Part shown: in pieces, positions 3,201 through 12,358 of the stretch
Layout of the letters: each line of letters opens with the position of its first letter
Position numbering within the stretch: position 1 is the first letter of the stretch
Assembly (NCBI GenBank): GCA_012034595.1
Contig: JAAUPE010000053.1
Span: forward strand, 1-42,897
Length of the DNA: 42,897 bases
Origin: Calothrix sp. CSU_2_0
GTDB taxonomy: Bacteria; Cyanobacteriota; Cyanobacteriia; Cyanobacteriales; Nostocaceae
Reading direction: 5' to 3'
Made by a program: the position numbers and the translations under genes
The notes under the pieces: model-generated
Told to the model about the DNA's origin: nothing
The model's database searches: none
What the model saw: only the letters and a program-made list of their open reading frames with translations

Positions 3201-3959
3201 TTAATTGACTGGGGATGATATTAAAGATTGATTATGTAGCATACTTGTTAATTCGGAATCGAGCCATGTTTGAAACATTCGGTTTAAAATTTCTTCGTAC
3301 CTTTGAGATGTTAACTCGGCTGAAATAAGCTCGTCAATCAGGAAAATATGACTTGTCTGTCCAATACGGATTGGAGCAACTACTTCTCCTATTTTGCTAC
3401 TAAATAAAATAGCCGCAACGTCAGGTTGAAAATCCCAACGGTATAATTTACCTTCGTATCCACATTCTCTTCGTCTTCGTTCATCAGTATCATATAGGTG
3501 AGCAGCTTCATAAAAACTCATCTCACTTTCCTCGATTTGATAAAAAATTTCTTGTGCTAGTTGTTCGTAAGGAACAACGATTTGGTAAACAATAATTTGT
3601 TCAAAATCTAATCTATTTTCTGTAAAGAATTTTTCGACATCTTTGGCAAATAACACATCAGCTAATTTCTTCGTCAGTAAACAATCTCGAATTCCTGCTT
3701 CCCAATCTTCAGGAGCCATCAAGTTATCATTTAACCATGCGATTGTATCACTTGCTCTCACTAACCGCTTTGCATATCGTTGGCGATCGGCTTCGATTTG
3801 GATTTCTTCTGCTGTTACAATTATGCCCCTATCTTCAGCATGTTTTTCAATAATTTGATGATATAAAATATTTTTACATACATCTTTTAATTTGACGTTT
3901 TTTTTGAGTGAGGCGATTATTTGCTCTGGTTGAATTATTTTATCCTTCAGATTAATCAT
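3201..3959 (-). CDS. Parvulin/SurA-like peptidyl-prolyl isomerase of the peptide-export locus
   Basis: A 252-residue protein with a helical SurA-like N-terminal part (about 1-120, including VTAEEIQIEADRQR) and a rotamase-like C-terminal part (about 125-225, from YQIVVPYEQLAQ through KIGEVVAPIRIGQTSHIFLI, where the last strand pattern is typical of parvulins). No signal peptide is seen, so it would act in the cytoplasm unless exported otherwise. It is the last gene of the minus-strand locus, 174 bases after the last small peptide gene. Such isomerases are known beside C39 exporter/HlyD genes in cyanobacteria. Handling or folding of the exported peptides is inferred. Confidence 0.75.
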   Translation of the reverse strand: MINLKDKIIQPEQIIASLKKNVKLKDVCKNILYHQIIEKHAEDRGIIVTAEEIQIEADRQRYAKRLVRASDTIAWLNDNLMAPEDWEAGIRDCLLTKKLADVLFAKDVEKFFTENRLDFEQIIVYQIVVPYEQLAQEIFYQIEESEMSFYEAAHLYDTDERRRRECGYEGKLYRWDFQPDVAAILFSSKIGEVVAPIRIGQTSHIFLIDELISAELTSQRYEEILNRMFQTWLDSELTSMLHNQSLISSPVN

Positions 3960-4133
3960 AAGGTCGATTGCCTCACAATGAAAAAATAGATAAGCACAAG
4001 ACTAACTATGGTGGCAAAGTAAGCACATGCTGCCACAAAAATGTTTTCATTACTTTAACTGTCACTCCCTAGAAACCACAATTACCTATGTCATAGTAGA
4101 TTGAATTATTCGCTACAAATCGAAATTAAATTT

Positions 4134-4391
4134 CTAGAATATGTCGGAAAATAATGATGTTTTTGGTGATGATTTTTGAACTGGTATAGAATAAGGCAGA
4201 TTAATTGCAATCATAATAGGTATGGCAATATTTACAGCAATTGCAACGTTACCAATTGAGTTGTTATTAGAGTTACCAATAGAAGCAATTGCAACTTGGT
4301 TAATACCAAGAGTTTGCCAAATGTTTCTACCACCTTCTATATTAGATGATTGGATAACTTCTTCCATATGGTCTAAATCGGAAATAATCAT
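4134..4391 (-). CDS. Double-glycine leader peptide precursor 7 (last of the array)
   Basis: An 85-residue precursor with leader MIISDLDHMEEV and a GG at residues 20-21 (SSNIEGGRN). The mature part keeps NNSIGN and the AVNIAIPI block shared with the other precursors, but carries a unique tail of about 20 residues with three prolines and lysines (INLPYSIPVQKSS). GGAA lies 10 bases upstream of the ATG. It is the longest and second most divergent member. Export and cleavage by the upstream C39 exporter is inferred from the leader; the activity is unknown. Confidence 0.8.
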   Translation of the reverse strand: MIISDLDHMEEVIQSSNIEGGRNIWQTLGINQVAIASIGNSNNNSIGNVAIAVNIAIPIMIAINLPYSIPVQKSSPKTSLFSDIF

Positions 4392-4633
4392 TGGTATATT
4401 CCTACATAAATAGAGAATAGTTGTTTTTAAAAATTGTTAAAAGCAACTATTGATAGAATCTTAATTGATTTTTAAGCTCCATAGTTTCAATTATGGTCAA
4501 AACTAGGTTGCATTCAAAGATATATTTTTTAGATTTAAAGCAACTTCATCCCAGAATTGCTATGGAGCTTAGGAGTATTCCAAGTAAAAAAATAGATTAT
4601 TTATTTTTGGAATACTATAGAGACAGCATCGAT

Positions 4634-4837
4634 TTACAAAATACCAATGCCAGTAAGAGTAGGAATAGCAATATTTAATGCGATCGCAGTATTCCCAATT
4701 GAGTTTCTACCAGCACCACCAACACCAGCAACACCTAACTGTAGGGGAATAGTAACTCCTTGTAAAACGTCACCACCACCTTCTAGATGGGATGCTTTAT
4801 CAACGGTTTCTAAATAGTTTAAGTCTGAAATAATCAT
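4634..4837 (-). CDS. Double-glycine leader peptide precursor 6
   Basis: A 67-residue precursor with leader MIISDLNYLETVDKASHLEGG. Cleavage is expected after GG at residues 20-21, leaving a core of about 46 residues, rich in Gly, Ala, Ile and Val and free of cysteine, that contains GGAGRNSIGNTA and ends IPTLTGIGIL. The ATG at 4837 is chosen because AAGGAG sits 7 bases upstream; the longer frame starts at a TTG inside that ribosome site region. Closely related to precursors 1-4. Confidence 0.87.
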   Translation of the reverse strand: MIISDLNYLETVDKASHLEGGGDVLQGVTIPLQLGVAGVGGAGRNSIGNTAIALNIAIPTLTGIGIL

Positions 4838-4954
4838 TGTTTTCTCCTTCAAAATCAACCATAATTTTGCTGATGATTTGACCGATGAAGCTATTAACTA
4901 GTTGTTAGCTAAAATTGCTAATAAAATATAGCTAATCGCTTTCGTTGGTAATCT

Positions 4955-4991
4955 GTCTAAGCTTCTCTAACTAAAGCAAAGAAGCTCAGAC
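4955..4991 (-). terminator. Hairpin downstream of precursor 5
   Basis: GTCTAAGCTTCT (4955-4966) and AGAAGCTCAGAC (4980-4991) pair at 11 of 12 positions. It begins 10 bases after the precursor 5 stop on the minus strand. It shares its GTCTGAGCTT/AAGCTCAGAC arms with the hairpin after precursor 2. No T-run follows, so RNA processing or attenuation is as likely as termination. Confidence 0.5.
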
Positions 4992-5001
4992 TTATAGAAT
5001 C

Positions 5002-5214
5002 CTAGAATTGAACCATACATGGTTTAGGCATGGGCATGGTTGTGAAATTTGTATCAATCATGATTCCCTTTTCAAGCAACCATTTTTTGGCATCTTCAAT
5101 ATTATTTGGAAAATCTTTACTACTGGAGATGCTAACAAAATTTAGTTCAGAACCACCTTCCAATTGGGGTGCATCATTCTCGAATTCCCAATAGTTTATA
5201 TCGGAGATAATCAT
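5002..5214 (-). CDS. Double-glycine leader peptide precursor 5, divergent core
   Basis: A 70-residue precursor. The leader MIISDINYWEFENDAPQLEGG matches the array, but the part after GG is unrelated to the others: it lacks GGAG, NSIGNT and the IPTVTG end. It instead has a charged, probably helical stretch (NNIEDAKKWLLEKGIMIDT) and an end rich in Met and Pro with one cysteine (MPMPKPCMVQF). The ATG at 5214 is preceded by GGGAG; the longer frame would start at TTG. The pattern suggests core replacement behind a conserved leader, as in other double-glycine peptide families. The function of the mature peptide is unknown. Confidence 0.82.
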   Translation of the reverse strand: MIISDINYWEFENDAPQLEGGSELNFVSISSSKDFPNNIEDAKKWLLEKGIMIDTNFTTMPMPKPCMVQF

Positions 5215-5350
5215 TTTTCTCTCCCGCAAAATTTGCTCTTATTTTACTTAGGGTTAATTAACTGTCAATTTGTTCTGTTTCTGTTCAATTTTGTCGCGAT
5301 AATCTGAGTGAAAAGCTTAGTTAAAATCAGAGATAAAAGCAGTATCAAGT

Positions 5351-5551
5351 TTAAAGAACACCAATTCCACTCAAGGAAATAATCGCGAGATTTAATCCCA
5401 ATGAGGTATTACCAATCAAGTTGCGATTAGTTCCACCAACATTAGAATTTGCAGATTGCCCCACAGCGACGAATTGAAAAACATCGCCACCACCTTCTAA
5501 AGAGGATGGATTATTTACGAATTCTAGATAGTTCAAATCGGAAATAATCAT
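5351..5551 (-). CDS. Double-glycine leader peptide precursor 4
   Basis: A 66-residue precursor with leader MIISDLNYLEFVNNPSSLEGG. The core starts GDVFQFVAVGQ, like precursors 2 and 3, and keeps NLIGNTSLGLNLAI, but ends IISLSGIGVL without the proline found in its sisters. The ATG at 5551 has GGAG 8 bases upstream; the longer frame of 83 residues would place the ribosome site inside the protein and is rejected. No cysteine, no predicted modification residues. Confidence 0.85.
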   Translation of the reverse strand: MIISDLNYLEFVNNPSSLEGGGDVFQFVAVGQSANSNVGGTNRNLIGNTSLGLNLAIISLSGIGVL

Positions 5552-5620
5552 TGTTTTTCTCCTACGAAAATTGTAGAGATTTTCCTGAAATTTGATTAGC
5601 ATTTATGCTATTTTTCAAAT

Positions 5621-5821
5621 TTACAGAATACTAACACCAGTGACGGTAGGAATAGCAAGATTTAATCCTAACGCGGTGTTACCAATTGAGTTTTGACCTG
5701 CTCCACCAACTCCTGCAAATGCAGCTTGTCCAATCGCAACGAATTGGAAAACATTACCAGCACCTTGAATATTTGCTGTTTCAGTTATAGGTTCTAGGTA
5801 GTTTAAATCCGAAATATTCAT
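5621..5821 (-). CDS. Double-glycine leader peptide precursor 3
   Basis: A 66-residue precursor with leader MNISDLNYLEPITETANIQG. The cleavage site is of the Gly-Ala type (residues 20-21, QGAG) rather than GG. The core contains NVFQFVAIGQ, GGAGQNSIGNTALGL and the IPTVTG end. The ATG at 5821 is preceded by AAGGAG 6 bases upstream; an upstream in-frame TTG overlaps this ribosome site and is not the start. Nearly identical to precursor 2 in its second half, which points to recent tandem duplication. Confidence 0.87.
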   Translation of the reverse strand: MNISDLNYLEPITETANIQGAGNVFQFVAIGQAAFAGVGGAGQNSIGNTALGLNLAIPTVTGVSIL

Positions 5822-5864
5822 TTTTTTCTCCTTCAACTGTTTGATTATGTTAATGCTTTTTCAT

Positions 5865-5903
5865 GTCTGAGCTTTACGCTTTGAGGTAGCAAGAAGCTCA
5901 GAC
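5865..5903 (-). terminator. Hairpin downstream of precursor 2
   Basis: GTCTGAGCTT (5865-5874) pairs perfectly with AAGCTCAGAC (5894-5903) around a 19-base loop. It lies between precursor 2 (stop at 5915) and precursor 3 (start at 5821) on the minus strand, and matches the hairpin after precursor 5. No T-run; a processing or attenuation site inside the peptide array is the likely role. Confidence 0.5.
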
Positions 5904-5914
5904 GAAAGTAATGC

Positions 5915-6115
5915 TTAGAGGATACCAATACCCGTGACGGTAGGAATAACAAGATTTAATCCTAATGCGGTGTTACCAATTGAATTTTGACCTGCTCCAC
6001 CAACTGCTGCAAATCCCAATTGTGCTGTACCAACGAATTGGAAAACGTCACCAGCACCTTGAATGTTAGATGCTTCTTTCACAACTTCTAGATAGTTCAA
6101 ATCAGAAATATTCAT
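5915..6115 (-). CDS. Double-glycine leader peptide precursor 2
   Basis: A 66-residue precursor with leader MNISDLNYLEVVKEASNIQG and Gly-Ala at residues 20-21. The core includes DVFQFVGTAQ, GGAGQNSIGNTALGLNL and IPTVTGIGIL. It is uncharged apart from the region near the cleavage site, rich in Gly/Ala/Val/Ile/Leu and free of cysteine. GGAG lies upstream of the ATG. One of the five members (1, 2, 3, 4, 6) that share the same core plan. Secretion and processing by the linked exporter are inferred. Confidence 0.88.
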   Translation of the reverse strand: MNISDLNYLEVVKEASNIQGAGDVFQFVGTAQLGFAAVGGAGQNSIGNTALGLNLVIPTVTGIGIL

Positions 6116-6193
6116 TTTTTTCTCCTACAAATTTTGTTGATGTTTCACTAGAATTTTGAGTAGTAAGAATGCTCCCTATTAGCTTAATTATGT

Positions 6194-6394
6194 TTAGAGA
6201 ACGCCAGTACCAGTGACGGTAGGAATAGCAATATTCAATGCCAATGCTGTATTTCCTATTGAGTTTCTACCAGCTCCACCAACAGCAGCAGTCGCAAATT
6301 GTACGGGAAGAACGAATTGAGCAACATCACCAGCACCTTGAATATTTGTTGCTTCATTTACGACTTCTAAATATGTTAAATCAGAGATAAACAT
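6194..6394 (-). CDS. Double-glycine leader peptide precursor 1 (first of the array)
   Basis: A 66-residue precursor with leader MFISDLTYLEVVNEATNIQG and Gly-Ala at residues 20-21, followed by DVAQFVLPVQFATAAVGGAG, then RNSIGNTALALNIAIPTVTG. AAGGAG lies 8 bases upstream of the ATG. It is the first peptide gene after the HetP-like gene, separated from it by 290 bases with a hairpin (6624-6643), so the array may have its own promoter. Start-to-start spacing to the next copies is about 280-290 bases, as expected for tandem duplication. Confidence 0.87.
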   Translation of the reverse strand: MFISDLTYLEVVNEATNIQGAGDVAQFVLPVQFATAAVGGAGRNSIGNTALALNIAIPTVTGTGVL

Positions 6395-6623
6395 AATTCA
6401 CTCCTTCTATTTTCTGTGGTTTGATTTTGTCTTTCAACTCTGTCTGAGTTGTTATCTTTAATATATATCTTCTAATTTTATTTGTGGTGCTTTTTTACGT
6501 TATGTGGAGCCACTTTGGCAGGAAGATTTGCAAATAGATTCAGCATTGTTTTAAACAGGCAAATACGACGCACTTGTGATATACAAATGCGTCGATAAGT
6601 AGATATATTAAAGTCCTGTAAGA

Positions 6624-6643
6624 AGTAGGGCTAAAGCCTTACT
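6624..6643 (-). terminator. Hairpin between the HetP-like gene and the peptide array
   Basis: AGTAGGGCT (6624-6632) and AGCCTTACT (6635-6643) pair at 8 of 9 positions around two A residues. It begins about 40 bases after the HetP-like stop. It resembles the common GTAGGGCTAAAGCC... interspersed hairpins of Nostocales. It could reduce read-through into the peptide genes. Confidence 0.45.
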
Positions 6644-6684
6644 ACAAACTTAATCATCAAAAAAATATTTGAGCGCGATCGCAC

Positions 6685-7083
6685 TTAATTACGCTGTAAA
6701 GTAATCGGAGTAAAACTAGATAATAGTTCTGCTATTTCTAGTGTATAGACTAGACAGCCACCCTTGGGATTAACTTGTTTGCTATCAAGTGGTTCTAAAT
6801 AAGTTAGGTCATTAATATTAGTTAAACATGCAGATGTTTGTGAGTTATTAGAATTGGGTTGATATTCAGTCGTTGTATTTAACTGGCGATTCTCTTTTAA
6901 TAATCTACTATATGTACGATAAGGAATATAATGAAGGGGATTATAACCTGCAAAACGTAAAATTAAGACACAAGCCCAAGAATATCTGCCAGATGCAATT
7001 GCTTCTACAACTTGACTGAATTGCTCTGGTTTCATTACTCTGTCGGGTTGTTTTTGAGCGGGTTTTGTTGAGTGAGTCATCAT
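6685..7083 (-). CDS. HetP-like protein with a C-terminal double-glycine leader-like motif
   Basis: A 132-residue protein. Residues about 17-65 form a HetP-type domain: [13 protein letters not shown], then [18 protein letters not shown] and [13 protein letters not shown], the signature of the HetP family that modulates commitment to heterocyst formation in Anabaena. A polar linker rich in Asn/Ser/Thr follows (66-87). Residues 89-109 read [21 protein letters not shown], clearly like the leaders of the seven downstream peptides, followed by a 23-residue tail beginning with Cys110. The gene sits 41 bases after the HlyD gene, with AAAAGG before the ATG. HetC and HetP genes are adjacent in Anabaena, and the exporter two genes upstream is HetC-like, so the neighbourhood agrees. 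Whether the tail is cleaved and exported is not known. Confidence 0.85.
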
Positions 7084-7124
7084 AATTAATTACCTTTTAG
7101 AATTAGACATTACAGAACTAGACA

Positions 7125-8849
7125 TTACAAATTAATTCCCCCTGCTTGAACTTGCCGAATTGGATCGAGGATGACATCAATAATGCGACGATGACGGGTG
7201 ATAATTTCGGCTGTTGCGGTTTGCCCTGGTTTGAATTTGATAATTTGCTTATTTGCTGTCAAGCGATCGCGTTCTAGTTCGATTTCTACCCGATAGACTG
7301 CACCGAGTTTTTCGTCGGGTTTGACATCGGGTGATATGGATGCAACTTTACCTGTAATGATTCCGTAGTCTTGGTATGGAAAAGCATCCAATTTTACTTG
7401 GGCTGTTTCTCCAACCTTGACAAAACCAGCTTCGCTGTTAGGTAAAGCAGCTTGCAGAATTAACGGAACTCCTTGAGGTGCGATCGCAGCTATGGTTTGT
7501 CCAGATTGAACGACTTCACCACTGTTACGGATATTCATTGACAAGACGACACCATCGACAGGTGCAGTTAAATAATATTGTTGTAATTCAGCTTTGGTTT
7601 TTTCGAGTATCTTCTCTGCTTGCTGAATTTTGGCTTGGATTTGGGTTTTTTCAACTTGTAGTTGTTGAATCTTTTGTTGCGATTGCACCTGAACTGTACT
7701 TGCTTCCGCTTGTTTTTGAACTAACTCTGATTGAAGTCTTTGGATTTCCGTTTGTGTTTGTTGGATTTCGCTTTGACTTTGGGTGATGCTGCGGGTTGTT
7801 TGAGCTTCAGCTTGTTTCGCTTCAAATAAGCGATCGCGAGTCATGGGGGTTTCTTCAATTTGACTTTTGATAATTGCTAATTCGCGATCGCGTAATGCTT
7901 GTTCTGCTTGAAAGTGCATTTCACGGGAGATTGCCCCCTCTGCTACTAATGCTTTGAGTCGTTCAGCACGTTCTCTATATGCTGTAATTTCATTTTGTCG
8001 CTGTTTGAGTAGTTCTTTGGATTTAGCAAGCAATGGTTCGATTTGCTTGCGTCGTTGAATCGTAGTATTTTGCTGGTTATGCAACTGATTCATCAATTCA
8101 TAATTTGCGACTAACCTGACTCGTGCAGATGCGATCGCGCTTTTTTGTACTTGTTGTTGGGAAGCAGCAATTTCTACTTTTGTTTGCGATTCTAAAACTG
8201 TTTTGTCGATGAGAGAGTCGGTTTGCACCAGTTGAGTTTGTAAAGCTGTTTTTTCCTGCTGTAAACGCTCGATTTCTTTGCTCACCATTTGATTATCCAT
8301 CTCAGCGACAACTTGTCCAGCTTTAATGAGTTGTCCTTCTTGTATGTAAACACGGGAAATTTTACCTGCTACCACTGGATTAACTTTGTAGGGTTCACCT
8401 TGGGGAACTAATAACCCGGTAGCTTTACCCACTTCGTCAATATGTCCAAAAGATGCCCAAGCAACAAACGCAGCACAAAAAACTAATCCACCTACCACCA
8501 CTTGAGTTGGTAAGGATGCTGGGGGAAGATCGAGAACTGATTGCAACGATGTAGACCAATTTTCAATTGATGGTGATGTTTGTGATGAATGGGAATTAGC
8601 TGTCGTCAACCCAACTGAAGCAGCAGAACCTCCAGACAACAAACTAGTTTCATCATCGTTTGCTGCATCAAGAATTTCCCTAGTTATATGCGATCGCGAA
8701 TTAATAGTAATCCCATCCCCACCTATCTGATGATTAACATAAACTTCATTTACACTATTCCTAGTTACAAAAAATCTATCTAACAAAGGTTGAATCGAAT
8801 CATTTCCAGACTCATTATCAAAATTATTTCTTAATAGTGAACTATTCAT
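7125..8849 (-). CDS. HlyD-type membrane fusion protein of the peptide exporter
   Basis: A 574-residue periplasmic adaptor of a type I-like export system. An unusual cytoplasmic N-terminal stretch of about 110 residues precedes one membrane segment (VVVGGLVFCAAFVAWASFG). Next comes the first half of a lipoyl-like domain (VNPVVAGKISRVYIQEGQLI), a long glutamine-rich coiled coil (about 190-425), the second lipoyl half (YYLTAPVDGVVLSMNIRNSG) and a beta-barrel end. It probably links the ABC exporter to an outer-membrane channel; no TolC gene is visible here. It lies 353 bases downstream of the exporter gene and is immediately followed by the HetP-like gene. Confidence 0.93.
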   Translation of the reverse strand: MNSSLLRNNFDNESGNDSIQPLLDRFFVTRNSVNEVYVNHQIGGDGITINSRSHITREILDAANDDETSLLSGGSAASVGLTTANSHSSQTSPSIENWSTSLQSVLDLPPASLPTQVVVGGLVFCAAFVAWASFGHIDEVGKATGLLVPQGEPYKVNPVVAGKISRVYIQEGQLIKAGQVVAEMDNQMVSKEIERLQQEKTALQTQLVQTDSLIDKTVLESQTKVEIAASQQQVQKSAIASARVRLVANYELMNQLHNQQNTTIQRRKQIEPLLAKSKELLKQRQNEITAYRERAERLKALVAEGAISREMHFQAEQALRDRELAIIKSQIEETPMTRDRLFEAKQAEAQTTRSITQSQSEIQQTQTEIQRLQSELVQKQAEASTVQVQSQQKIQQLQVEKTQIQAKIQQAEKILEKTKAELQQYYLTAPVDGVVLSMNIRNSGEVVQSGQTIAAIAPQGVPLILQAALPNSEAGFVKVGETAQVKLDAFPYQDYGIITGKVASISPDVKPDEKLGAVYRVEIELERDRLTANKQIIKFKPGQTATAEIITRHRRIIDVILDPIRQVQAGGINL

Positions 8850-9202
8850 ATTTTTATCCCCAAAATAATTATTTTTCCATATTCCTCAGCGTTTTTCTGC
8901 GTTAAGCTCCCGTAGTTTTGCGGAAGAATAATCTCCCGCAAACTAATATCCGCGCTCCTTTGCTTTAAAAAATATTTTATTCCTGAACTAGTACATCAAG
9001 GCAGAAGGAATAAAAGCTTATTTGAGAAAGTTTTTGTCTCTTAGAAATGATTAGTGTATTGACGCTGACCAACACTAGATATTTTTGAAAAAATGTTATC
9101 CCCCCTAAAATACATAATACTTCCACTCAATTAAATCGTTCCTACTTTTAACATGATTAGCTGCCAAATTGGCAGAAAAAAAAACATTCCCCCATAACCA
9201 AA
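8850..9202. other. Spacer between exporter and HlyD genes
   Basis: No gene is visible. It contains a short palindrome CTGCC-AAATT-GGCAG (9161-9175) beside a run of A residues, about 25 bases past the exporter stop, and CGTTTTTCTGCG-type low-complexity repeat sequence. The length leaves room for a separate promoter for the HlyD gene, but I cannot point to one. Confidence 0.5.
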
Positions 9203-12200
9203 TCAAATATCCAACTGTTGCTGTGCCAGATGAAAATACAGTCCCTTTTGCTGCATTAACTCCTCATGATTTCCGCGTTCAACAATAATTCCCTTATCTA
9301 AAACCAGAATACAGTCAGCATTTCTTACCGTAGACAGACGATGGGCAATGATAAAAGTAGTACGTTCCTTGCAGATACGACGTAAATTATCTTGAAAACG
9401 TCTTTCCGACTCCGTATCCAGAGAACTCGTCGCTTCATCAAGAATCAGAATCCGGGGATGAGCAAGCAAAGCTCGTGCGATCGCAATGCGTTGTCTTTGT
9501 CCTCCCGAAAGTGCGGAACCACGTTCACCAACTTTGGTGTTATATCCCAAAGGTAAATTTTGAATAAAATCATGTGCTTCAGCAAGCTTGGCAATGTTCA
9601 CAACTTCAGCAAGCTCATATTCGAGTCTATACAAGGTAATATTCTCTAAAATCGTTCCCGAAAATAAAAAACACTCTTGCGGTACTACACCTAATTGCCG
9701 ACGTAACGACTGCGGAGAAACATGACGAATATCATACCCATCAATCAAAACTCGACCACTCGTAGGGGAATATAAACCCTGAAGCAAATTAATTAAAGTA
9801 CTTTTACCCGAACCACTGCGTCCAACAATTGCGATCGCTTCACCGGGATGTGCCGTAAAGGTGACACTTTGCAAAGTATTCCGTTGCTCATCCAAGTTGT
9901 AACGAAAGCTCACATTTTCAAATTTGACTTCACCATGCAAATTTGGCAAAACCAACAGTGGTTTATCTGGACTCTCTTCAGGAACTGCCGCAAACACATC
10001 ATCGAGACGTTCCACCGATACCAAGACTTCCTGCAATTCATCCCAAAGATTCACCAGGGAAAGCACCGGAGTAATCACATTCCCAATCAACATATTAAAA
10101 GCGACAAACTGACCAATACTCAATTGGTCTTGAATTACTAGTGTTGCTCCATACCACAACAAAGCTGTACTACCGACAGTATTAATTAATCCTCCAATCA
10201 CTTGCAGGTTATTTGCCAACTTTTGCCCGTGAAATTGAGCATTGAACATACCCGTCAAATGGTCTTCCCATAACCAGCGCAAATCCCGTTCTGCTGCTGC
10301 CATCTTCAGCGTGGCAATTCCAGTGAACATCTCCACAAGTGATGAATTCTGCTTGGCAGACTCGTGAAAAACATTCCGTGATACCTGTCGTAACATTGGA
10401 CTCGATACCGCAGTCAAAATAATAATTGGTGGCAAAATAGCCAATACCAACAGCGTTAACTGCCAGTTGTAATAAACCATTAAACCAACATAAACAAATG
10501 CCATCAACGCATCTAAGGCAGTGGTGACAGCTTGACGAGTCAGAAAAACTTGGATTTTTTGGTTTTCTTGAACACGGGTGATAATATCACCAACATGACG
10601 AGTAGCAAAAAACTCCAAAGGTAAATTCAGTGCATGACTAACAAAAGCACTAATCAGAGTCAAATCGACACGATTCGAGAAGTAATCTAACAGATATTGA
10701 CGAATTCCCACCAATCCAATTCGCCAAACACTAAACATCAATAAACCGATTGCAAATACATGTAAACTAATAAAGCTTTTGTGGACAACAACTTGGTCGA
10801 GAATGATTTGGGTGAATAAAGGTGTCACCAAACCAAAGACTTGCAGCAAAATTGATGCCATCACAATCGGTAACAGCGTCGAACTATAAGGTAAAAATGC
10901 CCCCCAAATCTTGCCAAATGTAGGTTTAGTATTGGGTATTTGTTCGAGTAACCCCGTTGGAGATAATAGCAGAGCATACCCAGTCCAACCCCCTTGGAAT
11001 TCAGAAAGTGACATCCACCGTTTTGCGATCGCAGGATCGGCAATTAAAATCCGATTTCCTTTAACACGATAAACAACTATGTAATGCTCCCCTTGCCAAT
11101 GGGCAATCCAAGGGTTCTTCTCCTCAACTAAACGATTCAAACTAGCACGCACTGGACGAGCATGAAACCCCAAATTTTCTGCTGCCACTGCCAAATTCTT
11201 CAGCGTCGCACCAGAACGATTAACTCCTGCCAAATTCCGCAGCAGATTCAAACTAAATCGTTTACCCCAGTACTGCGATATCATCCCCAAACAAGCAGCT
11301 CCACAGTCCATCATGCTTTGTTGCTTCACAAAAGGATAACGCTGACCAAAACCACGTTTGCGCTGCTTTGCGGGTTGGGGAAAGGGAATAATTTTCGACT
11401 CTGCCGTTGGGGGAACAAAACTGGAAACAGCAGATGGAGATTCTAAGAAATTAGCTGCTTGCAAATTCAAAGTTAGAGGTGATATTTTCTTCCCATCTCC
11501 CCGTTTGGGAAGGCTTTCTTCACCTGTAATTACTGGTGCAATTAGTTTTGCTGTTTCCCAATGTTCCCGTGGTAATTCATACACATACACATCAGATTGA
11601 GCAACCCAATCAGTGGGTATCTCCTGGGGATAACCCCAACTGTCACCAACTTGTGGTGGACTGTTTTGGTTTTTAGTATTGATGCCACTACCAATTTCAC
11701 CAATTCGCAGCCAGAAACAACTCGTCGGATGCGGTCGAAAACAATGTAAAAATTCACCAGCTTGAATCTGAGTTTCTACTAAATATTCAACAAACTGCTT
11801 GAGATTGTGACTAGAAAGTAAACGTAACTTAGTTAAGCTTTTAAAGAAAATCAGCTTTTGCTGTTGGTAGACAACTTGTTGTAAATCATTTTGTAAATTT
11901 GGTAGCTTATCAAACCAAAGCTTTAAATTCACCGACGAAATAAAAGCAACCACACCCATTGTTGCCGCGATCGCTCGATAAGCTAAGGGTTGCTTGTCAA
12001 ATAACTCATCAGTACCAAAGCGATCGCGAACTTCGAGTAATGATACGGGGACTTCTCGCTGTAAACTGGGATCGAATCCCACAAGTCTCACCCTTCCACA
12101 ACAAACAAGATAAAAACCCTGATGCTGTTCTTGATTACGAGATGAATCTACCGATGCTTTATATATGTCATAGTTTACAATTTCATCTCCCAAATTAAAT

Positions 12201-12358
12201 TGCATAATTTGGAATGCTTGGCTAAATTCATTAACTAACTCATCATTGCCAGGATATAAACTCCGCAGGATATCGGCAAAAAGCTCACGAAAGTTACCGA
12301 ATGTCCTAGATAGAGAATCTCCCGTAGATTCGATTATCTGTTTCATGGCTATGTACAC
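9203..12358 (-). CDS. HetC-like peptidase-containing ABC exporter with cyclic-nucleotide-binding-like modules
   Basis: A 1051-residue inner-membrane exporter that should cleave double-glycine leaders and export the peptides. Order: a cNMP-binding-like module (about 45-140) and a second, weaker one (about 165-270), both without a clean phosphate-binding cassette; a C39 peptidase (340-470) with oxyanion Gln347, Cys352 in MMDCGAACLGMI, His425 in WQGEHYIVVY and Asp441 in LIADPA, so catalytically complete; the membrane domain (about 480-770); and the ATPase with AIVGRSGSGKSTL, LSGGQRQRIAIARAL and ILDEATSSLD. Length and architecture match HetC of Anabaena (about 1044 residues), and a HetP-like gene lies two genes on, but other cyanobacterial exporters share this plan, so orthology is not claimed. 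The start is GTG at 12358 or ATG at 12346; neither has a strong ribosome site. Confidence 0.93.
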   Translation of the reverse strand: MYIAMKQIIESTGDSLSRTFGNFRELFADILRSLYPGNDELVNEFSQAFQIMQFNLGDEIVNYDIYKASVDSSRNQEQHQGFYLVCCGRVRLVGFDPSLQREVPVSLLEVRDRFGTDELFDKQPLAYRAIAATMGVVAFISSVNLKLWFDKLPNLQNDLQQVVYQQQKLIFFKSLTKLRLLSSHNLKQFVEYLVETQIQAGEFLHCFRPHPTSCFWLRIGEIGSGINTKNQNSPPQVGDSWGYPQEIPTDWVAQSDVYVYELPREHWETAKLIAPVITGEESLPKRGDGKKISPLTLNLQAANFLESPSAVSSFVPPTAESKIIPFPQPAKQRKRGFGQRYPFVKQQSMMDCGAACLGMISQYWGKRFSLNLLRNLAGVNRSGATLKNLAVAAENLGFHARPVRASLNRLVEEKNPWIAHWQGEHYIVVYRVKGNRILIADPAIAKRWMSLSEFQGGWTGYALLLSPTGLLEQIPNTKPTFGKIWGAFLPYSSTLLPIVMASILLQVFGLVTPLFTQIILDQVVVHKSFISLHVFAIGLLMFSVWRIGLVGIRQYLLDYFSNRVDLTLISAFVSHALNLPLEFFATRHVGDIITRVQENQKIQVFLTRQAVTTALDALMAFVYVGLMVYYNWQLTLLVLAILPPIIILTAVSSPMLRQVSRNVFHESAKQNSSLVEMFTGIATLKMAAAERDLRWLWEDHLTGMFNAQFHGQKLANNLQVIGGLINTVGSTALLWYGATLVIQDQLSIGQFVAFNMLIGNVITPVLSLVNLWDELQEVLVSVERLDDVFAAVPEESPDKPLLVLPNLHGEVKFENVSFRYNLDEQRNTLQSVTFTAHPGEAIAIVGRSGSGKSTLINLLQGLYSPTSGRVLIDGYDIRHVSPQSLRRQLGVVPQECFLFSGTILENITLYRLEYELAEVVNIAKLAEAHDFIQNLPLGYNTKVGERGSALSGGQRQRIAIARALLAHPRILILDEATSSLDTESERRFQDNLRRICKERTTFIIAHRLSTVRNADCILVLDKGIIVERGNHEELMQQKGLYFHLAQQQLDI

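Follow-up and report, generated by a model that had tools for sequence, protein, structure and literature searches.

A C39-type leader embedded in HetP-family proteins points to HetP as a candidate client of its neighbouring exporter and of HetC

Introduction

What does a peptide exporter of the C39 peptidase type act on when its neighbour is a protein of the HetP family? The question is raised by a stretch of 42,897 nucleotides from the cyanobacterium Calothrix sp. CSU_2_0 (GenBank assembly GCA_012034595.1, contig JAAUPE010000053.1), which in its full length we call the window. Positions 3201-12358 hold an operon-like run of genes on the minus strand, in the order exporter, HlyD-family adaptor, HetP-family protein, seven leader peptides and PpiC-type isomerase, with gaps of 41 to 353 bp between them (all window features given below are on this strand). 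The original prediction, made from the DNA letters, had placed these eleven genes on a single strand and suggested a peptide export system tied to cell differentiation; every gene was found where it had been placed, and the tie to differentiation is taken up below. The window is one contig (C82) of a 7.4 Mb genome (G000) with hetR and nifH.

An exporter with cyclic nucleotide monophosphate (cNMP)-binding and C39 domains likewise stands upstream of a HetP protein at the hetC-hetP-asr2819 (patC) locus of Anabaena/Nostoc PCC 7120. HetC is required there for heterocyst formation; both its protease activity in vitro and differentiation itself depend on the catalytic residues C347 and H420 (PMC10986499; here and below, published studies are cited from excerpts). 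This 2024 study gives the HetC substrate as not known, names HetP-derived peptides among the candidates and calls identification of the substrate the next crucial step; in the sections cited, no typical double-glycine leader gene was found near hetC. By the comparison described here, hetP itself would be a double-glycine-leader gene beside hetC, with a cut site and a predicted released peptide.

Results and discussion

The HetP-family protein of the window (132 amino acids, 6685..7083) scored 116.4 bits against the HetP domain model NF037966, well above the curated cut-off of 45 bits. Near its C terminus lies an embedded C39-type leader, INDLTYLE-x10-GG (residues 90-109, 6757..6816), which is of the same kind as the leaders of the seven precursors and was absent from the original prediction. 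The 23-residue tail behind the two glycines (6688..6756) is the peptide predicted to be released if a C39 peptidase cuts behind the glycines. In order to place this leader in its family, a model of 19 columns was built from the seven window precursor leaders only, and used to score what follows the HetP domain in 119 HetP open reading frames (ORFs). These came from a search of 195 genomes of the order, in which 72 genomes had HetP; a broken copy on contig C38 of the window genome was left out. The threshold was set at the score reached by 0.1% of 11,900 shuffles, which was 4.5. It was exceeded by 48 of the 119 tails, for 0.12 expected, and by 39 of the 71 HetPs that have an exporter or HlyD linked to them, as against 9 of the 48 unlinked ones. 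The tail of the window HetP itself scored 8.9 bits, and three shuffles reached at least 9.1. The motif as such is already known: KIXDLXYLEX10GG was published for HetP-like proteins near bacteriocin clusters by Wang 2011 (PMC3140520) and repeated for Subsection V strains by Micallef 2015, as a bacteriocin precursor motif. Leader-bearing HetPs were also seen with no exporter within 9 kb, in a family of five loci (f33: L166, L189, L190, L198, L199), two of which have tandem HetP.

The exporter (1051 amino acids, 9203..12358) was identified from Pfam matches, catalytic and Walker motifs and its place in a tree. ABC_membrane, Peptidase_C39 and ABC_tran were matched over their cut-offs, and the N-terminal cNMP-binding-like domain fell slightly below that for cNMP_binding (26.4 against 27.5 bits). 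The C39 domain (10955..11341, 142.6 bits) has in place the residues Q347, C352, H425 and D441 to which attention had been drawn beforehand, and Walker and signature motifs were found as well. With catalytic Gln, Cys, His and Asp fused to membrane and ATPase domains, the protein has the make-up of a peptidase-containing ATP-binding cassette (ABC) transporter (PCAT), and is predicted to cut double-glycine leaders, which are present at the locus. Its C39 domain would recognise the ISDLNYLE-type leaders of the seven precursors and cut behind G[GA], and the cores would then pass through the ABC channel and HlyD; the isomerase, as judged from its family, may assist in their folding or maturation. 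Since a leader of this kind also lies close to the C terminus of HetP, the protein is most likely a further client of that C39 domain, at which it would dock and be cut behind the glycines, freeing the 23-residue C-terminal peptide for export and leaving a trimmed HetP of possibly altered activity. Our preferred reading, to which we give a probability of about 0.58, is that HetP is a client both of the C39 exporter beside it and of HetC.

The extension to HetC draws on a tree of exporters (79 rows, reduced from 117; a quick tree rooted at the midpoint, in which long branches call for caution in the groups other than HetP-linked exporters). Rows from 80 named loci (the best 80 of 421, with a bias towards the window HetP) enter this tree and the precursor counts below; these loci were unused in the leader and glycine counts. 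All 61 HetP-linked exporters, with three rows in which no HetP was seen, form a group of 64 (Shimodaira-Hasegawa-like approximate likelihood ratio test, SH-aLRT, 95) which is separate from other C39 exporters. Within this group HetC makes up a clade of 17 rows without intact HlyD (SH-aLRT 100), its exact place there being left open by the tree. The window exporter belongs to a 7-row clade (SH-aLRT 100) with HlyD-bearing operons of Nostocales and Phormidesmis, outside the HetC clade, and its neighbouring HlyD is intact (574 amino acids), so that it does not qualify as a HetC orthologue. Three further tree rows labelled as lacking HlyD proved to be operons ordered HlyD-HetP-exporter; this order, rather than exporter-HlyD-HetP, characterises a family of five loci (f20: L121, L130, L137, L145, L155).

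At HetC-type loci of relatives HetP is kept with its C-terminal leader, as in the window, and a PpiC-type isomerase gene is often kept next to it. Unlike the window, canonical hetC loci are without intact HlyD, which is lost or shortened (remnants lie beside some hetC genes), and without linked leader peptides. Leader ORFs on the coding strand, at most 6 kb downstream of HetP, were found in 34 of 52 HlyD operons, more than chance would give (antisense control 2 of 52), and in none of 26 HetC-type loci (antisense control 1 of 26), counts which include near-duplicate loci and leave out those with less than 3 kb downstream (8 of 60 HlyD, 2 of 28 HetC-type). Those HetC-type loci accordingly showed no leader-bearing protein other than HetP. 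The proposal that PatC (asr2819) is a leader-bearing peptide was dropped, as none of these 26 loci, which do not include PCC 7120, showed a small leader ORF downstream of hetP. Taken together, hetC-hetP looks like a derived form of the exporter-HlyD-HetP operon: the pair probably arose when operons of this kind lost HlyD and the linked precursors, which would leave HetP as the natural client of HetC.

The association of C39 export with HetP thus recurs across the order and is not an accident of this genome; absence of linkage in relatives, which would have spoken against the original prediction, was not what we found. That prediction holds in so far as the locus is a C39 peptide-export operon with a HetP-family protein. 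Its tie to differentiation does not follow from HetP linkage alone, because exporter-HlyD-HetP operons also occur in lineages outside Nostocales, and because the exporter of the window, with its HlyD retained, does not belong to the HetC clade; the lineages outside Nostocales that have such operons are not known to form heterocysts. The window locus is also ruled out as the canonical hetC-hetP locus which, in a finding that goes beyond the original prediction, lies elsewhere in the same genome, on contig C210; in this the genome differs from the arrangement of PCC 7120. The C210 hetC (L093:16045-18195) is an uninterrupted frame of 716 amino acids, without N, which lacks roughly residues 400-700, most of the C39 and membrane domains, through either a true deletion or an assembly error. 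The adjacent canonical HetP keeps glycines and tail.

hetC is missing or decayed in many Nostocaceae, and published work reports that Nodularia CCY9414 and C. raciborskii CS-505 lack it. Relatives of PCC 7120 thus seem able to dispense with a gene that is essential there, which allowed us to compare the state of hetC with that of the HetP cut site and tail in 145 Nostocaceae genomes, many of them drafts. Canonical HetP was found in 142, three having no match at an expectation value (E) of 1e-28, and 75 of the 145 had an N-terminal hetC match at E 1e-55, in some cases to window-type exporters. This match defined hetC status and was checked, for loci with more than 3 kb of DNA upstream, by a tblastn search of that DNA, which moved three genomes to intact (G240, G322 and G332, with open frames of 966, 1038 and 1034 amino acids; G240 has an unmatched stretch in the N-terminal half). 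With less than 3 kb upstream, G217, G221 and G302 take their status from the N-terminal match alone and could be misplaced; the upstream DNA of G094 is also short at one locus (L230), and its other locus (L101) shows hetC remnants. From 120 HetP sequences three ambiguous genomes were left out (G213, G236, G268), and 117 were scored. Outside these counts stand 22 other genomes that yielded no HetP sequence, by the N-terminal match 19 with hetC adjoining HetP and three without or unclear; the best HetP match extends past the glycine position in 19 of the 22, and has an internal stop codon, either before or behind the tail, in 11. Decayed hetC remnants lie upstream of hetP in Nostoc and others (for example L025, L031, L032, L035, L084, L085, L086 and L101, part of 39 loci).

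Of the genomes with intact hetC, 44 of 49 kept GG or GA together with a tail of at least 18 residues; of those without, 10 of 68 did so (Fisher test 7e-17, kinship ignored). Taken singly, the glycines were kept in 45 of 49 against 14 of 68, and the tail in 48 of 49 against 14 of 68; at the level of genera, everything was kept in 21 of 23 against 5 of 30 (p 4e-8). The YLE-type helix before the glycines stayed in 63 of the 68 hetC-less genomes, so that loss accompanying that of hetC tends to hit the cut site and what follows it. Among the 23 genera with intact hetC, identity was 0.88 for the leader, 0.88 for the glycines, 0.39 for the linker and 0.33 for the tail; for the glycines it was 0.27 among the 30 hetC-less genera. 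Correction for kinship used a quick tree of HetP DNA, with independent pairs taken on supported branches in 200 pairings. Of nine pairs, 5.1 on average differed in the same way, 0.0 in the opposite way (one such pair arose in a few of the 200 pairings) and 3.9 showed no difference. The corrected association follows the same trend, but is weak and suggestive rather than a proof.

The published genetics of PCC 7120 are compatible with this picture. Where the HetC peptidase domain has been lost, moderate overexpression of HetP fused to superfolder green fluorescent protein (HetP-sfGFP) gives full complementation (PMC4133259), which fits HetP acting downstream of HetC; neither this nor the localisation of the fusion, considered below, shows cutting or excludes docking. 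A primer from the same study (alr2818-9) translates to ...DFIHN at the HetP C terminus, which resembles the end of HetP at locus L211 (DIDFIRN), and for this reason PCC 7120 HetP probably has the tail.

In a fuller reading, which we put forward tentatively and at somewhat less than even odds, HetP would be the long-sought substrate of HetC, and HetC a repurposed peptide exporter that has lost its adaptor and dedicated precursors, cuts HetP behind the leader near its C terminus, releases a peptide of about 36 residues and leaves trimmed HetP as the active commitment factor. Most lineages that lost hetC would have a HetP that already ends at or close to the cut, and this would account for their forming heterocysts without a gene essential in PCC 7120. 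The window operon would be ancestral in kind, with a single exporter handling secreted peptides as well as a regulator that bears a leader, and thereby coupling secretion to regulation. The reading yields a prediction for mutants, and would join two literatures on the same proteins, one treating them as commitment factors and the other as bacteriocin precursors.

Several observations weigh against HetP being a client. Cleavage and export of HetP are predictions from sequence alone. The best single shuffle scored 13.9, above the 8.9 bits of the window HetP, so that the case for a leader in HetP rests on the family and not on the window protein by itself; within the family, 32 of the 71 linked HetPs fell below the threshold (some visibly with a variant) and the nine unlinked ones above it have to be accommodated. 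The window HetP has Pro at position -4, and the spacing from YLE to the glycines is x10 to GG in HetP but x9 to G[GA] in the precursors. The precursor pattern found no leader ORF in 18 of the 52 HlyD operons. The tail, though kept in length, is no better conserved in sequence than the linker (0.33 against 0.39), and the sign test corrected for kinship gave a median p of 0.0625, weaker than the raw association. Four hetC-intact genomes of one genus have RGR in place of RGG, another hetC-intact genome has a HetP tail of 4 residues, and the 10 of 68 hetC-less genomes that retain glycines and tail include that of the window; perfect co-loss of hetC and the glycines as an absolute rule is ruled out by these exceptions. 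Among genera with both hetC states, only g130 behaved as expected, while g1, g4 and g128 showed no difference. Loss of hetC in these three is perhaps recent, since the C210 hetC of the window genome still has an open frame and G094 keeps remnants. Finally, HetP-sfGFP lies in the cytoplasm near the poles, and does so alike without the HetC peptidase (PMC4133259).

This similar localisation would suit an arrangement without cutting, in which the leader-like helix holds HetP at the exporter C39 domain as a sensor or as a competitor of the precursors. The one-residue offset of the HetP glycines from those of the precursors, the RGR of a hetC-intact genus and the helix kept in 63 of 68 hetC-less genomes, though the glycines are mostly gone, point the same way, the last suggesting that the helix has a role apart from the cut. 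Docking pure and simple has no need of the glycines, however, and these are far better conserved than the linker (0.88 against 0.39) and, with the tail, mostly kept where hetC is intact and mostly lost where it is not, which makes docking alone rather unlikely. The same association could reflect shared ancestry only, with a few lineages losing both hetC and the HetP cut site and tail for unrelated reasons; the modest sign test, losses that cluster in related genera and the expected contrast in only one of four mixed genera would all be compatible with this. We consider it unlikely, given that almost no opposite pair was seen, that on the HetP tree hetC changed state at least 14 times and glycines plus tail at least 15 times, and that HetP truncations end at several different places.

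The locus could also be an ordinary bacteriocin cluster of Wang groups I/II, with HetP as one more precursor and of no regulatory meaning. Its gene content does match these groups (PMC3140520), which have a long-type exporter with CAP_ED, HlyD, SurA, double-glycine precursors and an adjacent HetP-like protein; the window has all of these, its cNMP domain just below the Pfam cut-off, and the HetP motif was published there as that of a precursor. The window run differs in having no M16 peptidase or modification gene, and in its seven precursors as against averages of 0.35 (group I) and 3.78 (group II). Moreover, HetP and its homologues act in heterocyst commitment (PMC4133259, PMC9045159), and in hetC-less genomes the glycines and tail of HetP are mostly lost while the rest of the protein stays, so that a mere bacteriocin precursor is an improbable role for it. 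In our reading the window HetP is instead a client and a regulator. What the seven peptides do is a separate matter: rather than bacteriocins, they may be cell-cell signals or, like EbfG, secreted proteins of a biofilm or matrix, a reading to which we give odds clearly below even. It would fit the lack of a modification enzyme in the window operon, but relies on analogy with PteB/EbfG of Synechococcus elongatus (PMC4997328), likewise a C39 exporter with small double-glycine substrates, which is likened here by description and not by sequence, belongs to a unicellular host and comes from a paper whose main text does not contain the word HetP.

The window locus is accordingly a new member of published cluster types, and what is new is the proposal that HetP is a client of HetC-type exporters, together with the supporting comparison. 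In the full-text literature we found no paper linking the HetP leader to HetC by co-loss; most subscription papers, for example Videau 2016, were outside the scope of this search.

Other features of the locus and genome

The HlyD-family periplasmic adaptor (574 amino acids, 7125..8849) scored 232.2 bits against TIGR01843 (cut-off 208.65), and the PpiC/SurA-type peptidyl-prolyl isomerase (252 amino acids, 3201..3959) scored 28.7 bits against Rotamase PF00639 (cut-off 21.7). The gene content of the run bears out the earlier remark that no enzyme modifying ribosomally synthesised peptides is visible. An AlphaFold2 model of the window HetP has confident helices at residues 19-30, 34-44 and 55-70 and low confidence in the remainder (mean predicted local distance difference test score 68, predicted template modelling score 0.44), and a Foldseek search with it gave no match at E 0.001 or better.

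The seven small double-glycine-type precursors first recognised in the original prediction are all present, each with its leader, ISD[LI]x[YH][LMW]E followed by QGA in three and EGG in four. Precursors 1 (6194..6394, leader ISDLTYLE...QGA), 2 (5915..6115), 3 (5621..5821) and 4 (5351..5551) have 66 amino acids each, precursor 5 (5002..5214) has 70, precursor 6 (4634..4837) has 67 and precursor 7 (4134..4391), extended at its C terminus, has 85. In all seven an ATG is preceded by a stretch resembling AGGAG, which reads GGGAG in precursor 5 and AGGAA in precursor 7; the mechanical ORFs of precursors 3 to 6 start farther upstream, at TTG or an earlier ATG (5836, 5602, 5229 and 4858, respectively). 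None of the precursors had a Pfam match, or an NCBIfam match above cut-off. The cores of six have N[SL]IGN[TV][AS][LI][AG][LV]N in common, and precursor 5 is unrelated to them behind its leader.

The broken HetP-family copy on contig C38 (L094:9532-9672), the third in this genome, has a stop inside the match and shares its contig with nifH.

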